Notes under the pieces: generated by a model | The model's input: only the letters and a program-made list of their open reading frames with translations | What the model was told of the DNA's origin: nothing | Databases searched by the model: none | Part shown: piece by piece, positions 1 through 1,872 of the stretch | How positions within the stretch are numbered: position 1 is the first letter of the stretch | Layout: each line of letters starts with the position of its first letter | Program-made: the position numbers and the translations under genes | Source: Streptomyces sp. NRRL F-5630 | GTDB taxonomy: Bacteria > Actinomycetota > Actinomycetes > Streptomycetales > Streptomycetaceae | Assembly (NCBI RefSeq): GCF_000719475.1 | Contig: NZ_JOGO01000090.1 | Span: 1 to 21,842 of the forward strand | Direction of reading: 5' to 3' | Length of the DNA: 21,842 nt

Positions 1-53
1 CGGAACAGCGTCCACAACTCCTCCGGCACCAGACGCTCCACCAGATCAGCCAT
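1..53 (-). CDS. IS5-family transposase, N-terminal fragment (cut by window edge)
   Basis: Reading leftward from the ATG at 51-53, the first 17 codons give MADLVERLVPEELWTLF. I recognise this as the usual N-terminus of Streptomyces IS5-type DDE transposases, which goes on as a helix-turn-helix region followed by a catalytic DDE domain. Only this N-terminus lies in the window; the rest is beyond base 1, so I cannot say whether the transposase is intact. There is no obvious Shine-Dalgarno before the ATG. The family assignment rests on a short but characteristic peptide. Confidence 0.7.
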   Translation of the reverse strand, partial: MADLVERLVPEELWTLF

Positions 54-97
54 GCACGGCTCAACGAGCGACTACGCCAATAGAAACGGCCTCTTAG
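1..97 (-). mobile_element. Insertion sequence, transposase-proximal end
   Basis: The transposase start at 53 is followed outward by about 40 bp of less GC-rich sequence with codons unusual for this genome (AAT, AGA, TTA in the rightward frame). It ends near ggcctcttag (88-97), after which typical very GC-rich coding sequence begins. I place the element boundary around 90-97. With only one end in the window, neither the terminal inverted repeat nor the target duplication can be verified. Confidence 0.55.
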
Positions 98-279
98 CGG
101 GCGCCCCCTTGGCCACCCTCCCCGCCGATCCCGCCCCCGAGGTCCCCGCCGCCCGCGCCGCGCTCCGCCTCACGCAGACGCCCTGCCAGCGCTGCGGCAC
201 CCTCGTCGCCGGGCTCAACGGCCGCTACGCCTGCCCGGTGTGCGACTGGGCGAACCCCTGGAAGGACGGCGCCCGCTGA
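52..279 (+). CDS. Small zinc-ribbon protein with IS-derived N-terminus (chimeric)
   Basis: This 75-residue frame ends in a zinc ribbon with two CxxC knuckles: CQRC at about residues 45-48 and CPVC at about 61-64, separated by a short beta-hairpin (GTLVAGLNGRYA). Small actinobacterial hypothetical proteins of this shape are common; the function is unknown, though nucleic-acid or protein binding is usual for such ribbons. The only ATG (52) lies inside the insertion sequence, and residues 1 to about 15 (including a TTA codon at 94-96) are encoded by IS sequence. Between the IS boundary and the ribbon the only possible in-frame start is TTG at 109. The native start was probably lost or displaced by the insertion. 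There is no Shine-Dalgarno at 52, so expression is doubtful. Confidence 0.5.
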   Translation: MHGSTSDYANRNGLLAGAPLATLPADPAPEVPAARAALRLTQTPCQRCGTLVAGLNGRYACPVCDWANPWKDGAR

Positions 280-843: not shown

Positions 844-894
844 AAGGCGGGGCGGGGGCCGCGGAGGAGGCGTTGCGGGCCGCGCGAAAAAGGG

Positions 895-925
895 TTGGAA
901 GGCGGCAGGCCCCGGCTGATAGCTT
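895..925 (+). promoter_or_regulatory. Candidate promoter for leader peptide and hydrolase
   Basis: TTGGAA at 895-900 is a reasonable -35 element. GATAGC (918-923) or TAGCTT (920-925) could serve as -10, giving spacers of 17 or 19 bp. Transcription would then begin about 30 nt before the leader ORF at 965. This is motif-based only. Confidence 0.35.
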
Positions 926-964
926 GCGGTCGACCGTGACACCGCCCGAGGAGGTGAGGGACCC

Positions 965-1024
965 ATGAACGCTGTTTCGACGTGGGTGCTCCCCCTTTCG
1001 CGTCACGGCCGGCGGCCGAGGTAG
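965..1024 (+). CDS. Candidate 19-residue leader peptide upstream of hydrolase
   Basis: ATG at 965 is preceded by a very strong Shine-Dalgarno, GAGGAGGTGA (949-958), at ideal spacing. The frame runs 19 codons to TAG at 1022-1024, encoding MNAVSTWVLPLSRHGRRPR. It is in a different frame from the hydrolase that follows, and it ends a few bases before alternative hairpins that precede the hydrolase ribosome-binding site. That layout fits translation-coupled attenuation. The peptide contains one Trp, two Leu, two Pro and an Arg-rich tail but no long run of one amino acid, so no effector is evident. Confidence 0.5.
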   Translation: MNAVSTWVLPLSRHGRRPR

Positions 1025-1028
1025 GCCC

Positions 1029-1064
1029 GCCGGGAGCGCCTGAACACCCGGCACTCCCGAAAGG
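1029..1064 (+). promoter_or_regulatory. Mutually exclusive hairpins and RBS before hydrolase (attenuator-like)
   Basis: GCCGGG (1029-1034) can pair with CCCGGC (1047-1052). The overlapping CGGGAG (1031-1036) can instead pair with CTCCCG (1054-1059). The two stems share bases and cannot form together. The second stem touches the hydrolase ribosome-binding site GAAAGG (1059-1064). A ribosome stalling or finishing on the leader peptide (stop at 1022-1024) could therefore select the structure. There is no U-tract, so control at translation initiation is likelier than intrinsic termination. The pairing is seen in the sequence; the mechanism is inference. Confidence 0.45.
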
Positions 1065-1071
1065 CACCACC

Positions 1072-1872
1072 GTGCACTCTCTTCGCTTCACCGCCGAATC
1101 CCTCACGGACGGCGTGCTCACCCGCGACTTCGCCCTCGGCGACGTCCCCGGCGTCCTCTGGTCACCGGCCCCGTCCGCCCTGAATCCCTCCTCCCCCTCG
1201 CCCGCCCCGCTCGTCCTCATGGGCCACGGCGGCGGCGCCCACAAGAAGCACCGCGCCATGACGGGCCGCGCCCACGGCCTCGTGCCCGGTCACGGCTTCC
1301 ATGTCGCGGTGCTCGACGCGCCCGGCCACGGCGACCGGCCGCGCGGGGCGCGGGACGAGCGGGACATCACCGCGCTGCGCGAGGCACAGGCGGCGGGCGC
1401 GCCCGAGGGCCCCGTCGTCGTCCCGTACAACGCCCGGCTCGCCTCGATCGCCGTGCCCGAGTACCGCGCGGCACTCGACGCGCTTCTCGGACTCCCGGAG
1501 ATCGACGGGCCCGTGGGGTACGTGGGCGTCGGTCTCGGCACCGCGATCGGCGTGCCGCTCGTGGCGGCCGAGCCCCGGATCAGGGCCGCCGTCCTCGGCC
1601 TGCACTGGCCGGACGCGCTGATCGAGGCCTCGCGGCGGATCACCGTGCCGGTCGAGTACGTGGTGCAGTGGGACGACGAGCGGATTCCGCGCGAGGCGTG
1701 CCTAGCGCTGTTCGACGCCTTCGGCTCGCGGGAGAAGAGCCTGCACGCCAACGCGGGCAAGCACGTCGACTTCCCCCGCTACGTGGAGGCGGACAGCGCC
1801 GCGCGCTTCCTGGGCCGGCACCTGAGGCCGGCGGCGGACGGGACGGAGGCGACGGCGGCCGCAGCGGCCTGA
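1072..1872 (+). CDS. Alpha/beta-hydrolase fold protein lacking the usual nucleophile
   Basis: A 266-residue alpha/beta-hydrolase-fold protein (dienelactone-hydrolase-like group). I chose GTG 1072 because the conserved N-terminus starts at HSLRFTAE and GAAAGG (1059-1064) is well spaced. LVLMGHGGGAHK (48-59) is the oxyanion-hole region and LDAPGHGDRP (81-90) follows. An acidic residue in VVQWDDE (197-203) and the His in GKHVDFP (229-235) sit where the triad acid and base belong. The nucleophile elbow, however, reads GVGLG (152-156): Gly154 occupies the normal Ser position of GxSxG, coded GGT, one base from AGT. Ordinary esterase chemistry is therefore doubtful and the protein may be inactive, binding-only, or use another residue. 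It sits behind a leader peptide and attenuator-like hairpins. The substrate is unknown. Confidence 0.85.
   Translation: MHSLRFTAESLTDGVLTRDFALGDVPGVLWSPAPSALNPSSPSPAPLVLMGHGGGAHKKHRAMTGRAHGLVPGHGFHVAVLDAPGHGDRPRGARDERDITALREAQAAGAPEGPVVVPYNARLASIAVPEYRAALDALLGLPEIDGPVGYVGVGLGTAIGVPLVAAEPRIRAAVLGLHWPDALIEASRRITVPVEYVVQWDDERIPREACLALFDAFGSREKSLHANAGKHVDFPRYVEADSAARFLGRHLRPAADGTEATAAAAA

Follow-up and report, generated by a model that had tools for sequence, protein, structure and literature searches.

Attenuators of the erm type combine an upstream open reading frame (uORF) with four RNA segments that pair either as 1:2 and 3:4 or as 2:3, the ribosome-binding site of the regulated gene being held in the last helix; erm leaders work by peptide-specific arrest. 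A uORF-mediated attenuation of wblC/whiB7 was reportedly described by Lee, Lee and Roe in 2022. As far as the available excerpts of the papers cited here go, uORF-mediated attenuation of wblC/whiB7 also features in PMC7157823, where the WblC box is given as GAAAWY, 3 nt before the -35 element. The uORF attenuators of the ARE-ABCF type, are5sc and tiaA, act through an arrested start-codon ribosome and RNA refolding, and ribosomes on S. coelicolor uORFs are held at the start codon by drugs of the lincosamide, streptogramin A and pleuromutilin groups (PMC12421871). The GTC start codon of sigR in Streptomyces is repressed by IF3 (PMC5472188), and the reannotation of S. lividans describes amino-acid leader peptides (PMC8079986).

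We analysed a stretch of 21,842 nucleotides from Streptomyces sp. NRRL F-5630 (the window), in which a preliminary description had noticed a 19-codon ORF with a strong Shine-Dalgarno sequence, its stop ahead of hairpin material at 1029-1059, and a GTG downstream. All of these can be read in the sequence. That description proved right in kind and wrong in detail, the helices differing from those it had drawn. Family comparison identifies 935-1074 as a single copy of a widespread actinobacterial leader RNA (Table 1), and a model search finds one strong copy in the genome. Elsewhere in the window, a 75-aa ORF (52-279, plus strand) has a CxxC...CxxC ending that looks zinc-ribbon-like on reading.

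Table 1. Elements of the leader and its surroundings in the window
Feature	Position	Strand	Remarks
WblC/WhiB7-type promoter-like arrangement	886..925	+	predicted; relaxed pattern match
WblC-type box GAAAAA	886-891	+	last base off consensus GAAAWY; 3 nt before -35-like element
-35-like TTGGAA	895-900	+	
-10-like TAGCTT	920-925	+	
Closing stem P1, 5' arm CGTG	935..938	+	partner 1004-1007
Closing stem P1, 3' arm CACG	1004..1007	+	partner 935-938
Segment 1	950..967	+	uORF Shine-Dalgarno and start codon; 961-967 pairs with 981-987
uORF Shine-Dalgarno GGAGGTGA	950-957	+	read from sequence
uORF start codon ATG	965-967	+	inside helix 961-967/981-987
uORF, 19 codons and stop, peptide MNAVSTWVLPLSRHGRRPR	965..1024	+	read from sequence
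uORF stop TAG	1022-1024	+	read from sequence
Segment 2 GGGTGCTCCC	984..993	+	inside uORF; alternative partners segment 1 or, as 985-993, segment 3
Segment 3 GGGAGCGCC	1032..1040	+	alternative partners segment 2 (985-993) or segment 4 (1050-1058)
Segment 4 GGCACTCCC	1050-1058	+	directly abuts the gene's Shine-Dalgarno
Gene's Shine-Dalgarno GAAAGG	1059-1064	+	read from sequence
Alpha/beta hydrolase gene, putatively regulated	1072..1872	+	start codon GTG 1072-1074

Distribution of the leader and the genes behind it

A DNA search with positions 800-1250 matched 35 of 41 genomes somewhere along the query; several matches covered the leader alone, without the hydrolase, and some genomes held more than one match. 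The window and 43 of the 50 retrieved loci were aligned (alignment A1), and a model of these 44 leaders (R1) found the element in 168 of 199 Streptomyces genomes (E 0.001) and, across the class Actinomycetes, in 121 of 394 genomes and 43 of 137 genera (E 0.01). Model R2, made from PrmC-type leaders, matched 131 of the 394 genomes of the class. Model R3, made from 40 leaders of all gene classes, matched 52 of 158 genomes of the class (E 0.05) and 14 of 198 in a draw from the phylum, where three matches fell outside the class and were weak (E 0.0006 to 0.0075). These counts of genomes are minimum values from filtered searches. A pattern scan of named genomes gave at least 118 loci, and among the matches listed are Nocardia, Rhodococcus, Mycobacterium, Mycolicibacterium, Arthrobacter, Micromonospora, Amycolatopsis, Kribbella, Streptosporangium and others; when 41 of the loci were run against the models, 40 matched R1 or R2 (E 0.001 or better), the exception being L279, in a Dehalococcoidia bin. 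In PLSDB, 41 plasmid records match the leader, 37 of them across at least 80% of its length. For further comparison two alignments, A3 (18 leaders) and A4 (40 leaders), were picked by hand. After exclusion of the weak loci L055 and L056, 211 of 214 leaders could be parsed (all except L025, L041 and L229), yielding 187 unique leaders; these were collected by similarity, so that counts among them are of non-independent events. A near relative (genome G010) carries a copy 97.9% identical to the window leader (L009, 1323-1472, minus strand) in which the uORF stop TAG has become CAG, the gene's GTG is altered too and no downstream ORF was found by our script; it is a decaying copy.

A search of Rfam release 15 at gathering score returned no match in the window or in eight other loci of several classes, and at E up to 5 it returned three matches in five loci, all at chance level. 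In the loci searched, a known Rfam element is rejected as the identity of the leader, in agreement with the preliminary description, which had recognised no known riboswitch. The new RNAs reported from 50 bacterial genomes include Streptomyces motifs, and none of those checked, in the available excerpt, precedes the genes found here (PMC11109978). No description of the leader was found in the literature searched, subscription papers being mostly outside the search and publication elsewhere hence possible, and the peptide core STWVLP is absent from the same literature. The leader is a widespread and, it appears, so far undescribed RNA control element of actinobacteria.

The genes downstream belong to unrelated families: alpha/beta hydrolases, rifampin-monooxygenase-type (Rox-type) enzymes, GNATs, patatins and PrmC-like methyltransferases. 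Classes were assigned by regular expressions and vary with the script used: assignment by motif divides the 187 leaders into 65 hydrolase, 37 Rox-type, 36 PrmC-like, 12 GNAT, 9 patatin and 28 unassigned (the window included), and a looser script into 85 (the window included), 33, 31, 13, 9 and 16, respectively. Representatives matched TIGR03704 (PrmC-like, E 1.3e-121), NF033145 (Rox-type, rifampin monooxygenase family, E 2.5e-204; a 400-residue piece scores 679.5, the cut-off being 800), PF00583 (GNAT) and PF01734 (Patatin). The window hydrolase is 92% identical over 95% to a protein of Streptomyces sp. SID11385 that bears the name alpha/beta hydrolase and is a relative of esterase 4ao6 (E 3.1e-29); against Pfam and NCBIfam it has no match at E 0.01. 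On plasmid NZ_CP016083.1 (L354) the leader stands immediately upstream of a gene annotated rox. An alpha/beta hydrolase gene is found just upstream of this leader and rox.

In the converse test, R2 was found in 14 of 30 TIGR03704 loci, sampled from 57 genomes above the family cut-off, and R1 in 4 of 30 rifampin-monooxygenase-family loci, one of them on the strand opposite the gene. The converse association is thus partial, and many relatives of these enzymes stand without a detectable leader. The opposite-strand match (L387, 1105-1246, minus strand) is placed as though for the divergent neighbour. The window's own genome has a TIGR03704 (PrmC-like) gene above the family cut-off (L416, G000:C3:12977-13744), upstream of which there is no R2 match and no leader on reading the bases.

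A promoter scan covered 186 of the 187 leaders. The relaxed WblC-type pattern was present before 66 of 130 leaders with an AUG or GUG uORF start, compared with 0.23 in shuffles, and a stricter pattern before 19 of 130, compared with 0.03. By class, the relaxed pattern was found in 32 of 69 hydrolase, 26 of 33 Rox-type, 5 of 13 GNAT and 0 of 9 patatin leaders; before leaders with other starts it was found once in 56. AUG/GUG leaders thus seem often to be under WblC-like promoters, and their membership in the WblC/WhiB7 regulon is predicted. In the window itself a scan of 820-1150 with the plain sigma-70 consensus found no promoter; the WblC-type arrangement predicts a transcription start that speaks against one downstream of 1030, a position that would have undone the preliminary description. 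No terminator-like site was found in an intrinsic terminator scan of 820-1150 in the window, and on that ground a transcription attenuator of the ARE-ABCF and wblC type was rejected for the window.

The uORF and the competing helices

In 179 of the 187 leaders the first in-frame stop of the uORF falls near segment 3 (between 35 nt upstream and 3 nt downstream of its located position), against 15 and 36 for the other two frames. The same holds for the 57 leaders whose uORF starts with neither ATG nor GTG: the stop is so placed in 52 when read in frame, against 15 and 5 for the two alternatives. Of the eight leaders without a stop at the expected place, L143 has a mislocated segment 3, and four (L216, L220, L225 and L228) come from one short subclass with an AUC start whose uORF no longer stops at segment 3.

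Start codons of the uORF are ATG in 71 leaders, GTG in 59, ATT in 27, ATC in 25, GTT in 3, GTC in 1 and ATA in 1; the parser looks for a GRGGYG resembling a Shine-Dalgarno and for an RTN start codon, and starts of any other form would be missed. Their use follows gene class. All 36 PrmC-like leaders recognised start with ATT, ATC, GTT or GTC, and the divergent PrmC-type leaders L417, L418 and L419 start with ATT, ATC and ATT, respectively. ATG or GTG is found in 12 of 12 GNAT, 9 of 9 patatin and 36 of 37 Rox-type leaders (the remaining one having ATA), and in 51 hydrolase leaders versus 14 with other starts. The spacing between start and segment 2 is equally regular: segment 2 begins 16-20 nt past the first start-codon base in every one of the 187 leaders, and at 19 nt in 144, the parser tolerating about 12-23 nt.

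The codons of the uORF tell a different story from its frame. Synonymous changes make up 0.28-0.38 of the distinct changes in six subgroups, compared with 0.27-0.34 expected and 0.23-0.33 in the other frames, an excess that is slight and seen in five of the six. WVLP is kept in many leaders, and other subclasses read these bases in different frames, giving for instance VNTVTHGCSL or MHALSIPGAP. In the sequences compared, the frame of the uORF is kept and its peptide is largely free, with no strong coding selection. A peptide under coding selection, as membership in the erm type would have it, is hence unsupported, there being little or no synonymous excess and the frames differing between subclasses. 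Since there is little coding selection on the peptide, ribosome position is probably what is read, and the peptide is probably not the sensor. This fits the earlier remark that the peptide names no signal.

Single-sequence folding of the window could not decide on structure, because it exceeds dinucleotide shuffles at best moderately: z is -1.89 for 932-1080 (10 of 200 shuffles as stable), -2.16 for 1020-1078 (7 of 200), -1.42 for 983-1041 (20 of 200) and -0.30 for 945-1010 (64 of 200). It is the family comparison, and not the window alone, that raises structure above chance. Among the 44 leaders of A1, P1 is paired in 99.4% of cells and near-invariant, with one compensatory cell, and 1:2 in 98.7%. 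The consensus fold of these leaders contains P1 and 1:2 together with a portion of 3:4; helix 2:3 is drawn by a sub-alignment and by the PrmC-type consensus fold. Across the 44 closely related leaders 96.2% of the cells of 2:3 are paired and compensatory changes are absent; in the 40 leaders of all classes 2:3 is the best-paired helix, at 95.1%, with three compensatory cells at two pairs, a number reached in 3 of 500 shuffles. Single examples of matched changes in segments 2 and 3 are found in L230, L198 and L218.

We further exchanged pairing partners among the 187 leaders within gene class, in 100 trials, and compared the native mean energy with that after swapping. For 1:2 it was -16.75 natively and -16.25 (sd 0.08) when swapped, for 2:3 -20.52 and -20.17 (sd 0.09), and for 3:4 -25.20 and -23.93 (sd 0.14), and in each case 0 of 100 swaps were as good as the native pairing. 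The result for 2:3 was the same (0 of 100) when segment 3 was placed by a fixed consensus, which changes its position in 42 of 187 leaders. This test ignores the tree, so that kinship may inflate its scores, and the pairings foreign to the model are important as controls: these stay flat, the native value being reached in 81 (1:3), 100 (2:4) and 82 (1:4) of 100 swaps. Covariation is also seen in an outer helix that surrounds the Shine-Dalgarno of the gene (0 of 200 within-class swaps, 167 of 187 leaders). This helix is strong in Rox, GNAT and AUG/GUG hydrolase leaders (mean energies -15.1, -15.6 and -11.4), weaker in patatin leaders (-9.6), and weak in PrmC-like and AUU/AUC hydrolase leaders (-6.6 and -6.5) and in the window (-6.8 kcal/mol). 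The most conserved positions of the leader are the start signals of the uORF and the switching arms. Across the family, comparison of these leaders indicates that three mutually exclusive helices, 1:2, 2:3 and 3:4, are kept.

Of the two stems drawn in the preliminary description, 1031-1036/1054-1059 belongs to the core of the family-wide helix 3:4, with 82.2% of cells paired in the 44 leaders and 76.3%, with 11 compensatory cells, in the 40 leaders of all classes (0 of 500 shuffles). The other, 1029-1034/1047-1052, is ruled out as a family feature, as it is paired in 55.5% of cells with zero two-sided changes in the 44 leaders. Two helices had been overlooked, the competitor 985-993/1032-1040, whose 5' arm lies within the uORF, and 961-967/981-987, which holds the uORF start codon. 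The covariance comparison proposed at that time thus recovers a conserved uORF and paired changes, but in helices other than those drawn. Relatives of the window do keep the element, and the layout of a translational attenuator claimed for it is borne out by the in-frame uORF stops and the mutually exclusive, covarying helices.

A proposed gauge of ribosome position and its alternatives

We favour, with moderate confidence, a translational attenuator that gauges the position of the ribosome and not the peptide made. In the leaders compared, a reading frame kept together with its stop, three competing covarying helices and a constant geometry are features of the family; from them we infer that the uORF would be translated, in which direction the switch would turn and to what signal. 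In the resting RNA, 1:2 (the ribosome-binding site and start of the uORF with segment 2) and 3:4 would be paired, and 3:4, abutting or enclosing the gene's Shine-Dalgarno, would keep translation of the gene poor. A ribosome generally covers about 15 nt past the first base of the P-site codon. With such a reach, and with segment 2 lying 16-20 nt on, a ribosome parked at the uORF start would cover segment 1 and leave segment 2 exposed, which could then capture segment 3, so that 3:4 would be blocked and the gene translated. A ribosome moving further along the uORF would cover segment 2, and the gene would stay shut. The likely signal would be a block in initiation or in the formation of the first peptide bonds, for example by start-codon-arresting antibiotics, and this geometry, together with the reported drug arrest at start codons, makes start arrest our leading model.

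This ON/OFF direction is weakly favoured by folding calculations, and hardly at all in the case of the window itself. Computed with the start blocked (181 of 187 leaders), 2:3 pairing rises from 0.063 to 0.259, and unpairing of the gene's Shine-Dalgarno falls slightly, from 0.548 to 0.517; at equilibrium 3:4 stays dominant. A simple folding proof that the Shine-Dalgarno is released therefore failed, computed accessibility showing no switch. We also computed, for 152 of 187 leaders, what it costs to open the start region of the gene; with the uORF start blocked this cost was lower in 89 and higher in 22. It fell from 13.27 to 10.22 in PrmC-like and from 12.35 to 10.03 in AUU/AUC hydrolase leaders, fell by a small amount in AUG/GUG hydrolases and showed on average no effect in Rox (13.98 to 13.97) and GNAT leaders (13.33 to 13.62). 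Blocking codon 6 raised the cost by 0.7 kcal/mol on average. Blocking the stop outdid the start block, lowering it by 3.1 kcal/mol on average (lower in 115 of 152, higher in 17), with the largest effect in the AUG/GUG classes; PrmC-like leaders went from 13.27 to 11.70 and AUU/AUC hydrolases, in the reverse direction, from 12.35 to 13.16. For the window the values are 9.5 free, 9.4 with the start, 11.0 with codon 6 and 8.5 with the stop blocked. Given this dependence on class, the two branches may differ in detail, and sensing of termination keeps a small share of our belief.

In that alternative, which we consider rather unlikely, a ribosome slow to come off the uORF stop would cover the 5' side of segment 3 and melt 3:4, so that release-factor activity would be read. 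It draws on the computed gain from the stop block and on the position of the stop, which in 160 of 187 leaders sits 6-16 nt upstream of segment 3 as located, and would suit the PrmC-like methyltransferase genes, one gene class matching TIGR03704, a PrmC relative. However, it leaves no role for 2:3, the best-paired helix over all classes and a covarying one, and, as computed, the stop block lowers the cost less in PrmC-like leaders than in the AUG/GUG classes and acts the opposite way in AUU/AUC hydrolases. Covarying, mutually exclusive helices, and the AUU/AUC starts of one branch, are likewise left unexplained if the uORF merely loads ribosomes that re-initiate at the gene, with the helices as tuning. 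Such coupling, for which one could cite the very strong uORF Shine-Dalgarno, the window stop about 50 nt upstream of the hydrolase gene's start and the argument, in the available excerpt of PMC4833913, that leader ORFs raise expression, seems to us improbable.

Strong conservation of an RNA ahead of unrelated genes would also be expected of a metabolite riboswitch or a protein-binding RNA in which the ORF is incidental. We find this quite improbable, as leaders with AUU/AUC-type starts retain frame and stop too, conservation is highest in the signals that start the uORF and in the arms that switch, and Rfam gives no match in the loci searched. Very improbable, finally, is an arrest specific to the peptide, of the macrolide type or through amino-acid shortage, in which the nascent peptide or given codons would stall the ribosome: the retention of WVLP in many leaders speaks for it, but the synonymous fraction stays close to expectation, elsewhere those bases fall in another frame, and segment 2 would be hidden by a ribosome midway along the uORF.

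Returning to a gauge of ribosome position, we tentatively propose, as a possibility that we hold with some doubt, that one ancestral leader has spread through the class as an interchangeable gauge of initiation with two settings. The AUG/GUG form, often WblC-controlled, would stand before enzymes of the drug-modifying type, and the AUU/AUC/GUU/GUC form before PrmC-like methyltransferases, with IF3-discriminated initiation as its signal. The reading of AUU/AUC starts as a signal of IF3 activity is inferred from the sigR precedent, as presented in the available part of PMC5472188.

Comparison with known systems

If this model is true, a class-wide regulatory RNA would add a translation-sensing layer to the antibiotic response of actinobacteria, placed before enzymes that include rifampin monooxygenase relatives. 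Such a mix-and-match sensor would tell which enzymes cells make under an initiation block, and would bring to light natural, widely conserved uORFs with non-canonical starts ahead of genes related to release-factor methylation.

We file the leader as ribosome-mediated attenuation, a new version of a known type of mechanism. With erm-type attenuators it shares a uORF and four segments, 1:2 and 3:4 opposing 2:3, and perhaps a gene's ribosome-binding site in the last helix, the outer helix around it varying in strength between classes and being weak in the window. Unlike them, its segment 1 is the start region of the uORF itself, conservation does not extend to its peptide as such, and a single leader type serves at least five gene families. 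The antibiotic-responsive are5sc and tiaA (PMC12421871) and cplR (PMC10201436) attenuators likewise have very short uORFs; in the available excerpts they act by premature transcription termination, whereas no terminator-like site was found in the scanned part of the window. Attenuation of wblC/whiB7 occurs in the same bacteria, with a uORF and in the same stress regulon. There, in contrast, transcription of a regulator gene is attenuated, and here the leader is common to many target-type genes and seemingly translational. Finally, sigR resembles the second branch of the family in having a non-canonical start codon with a regulatory role, but its GTC starts the protein itself, whereas AUU, AUC, GUU or GUC would here start a uORF.
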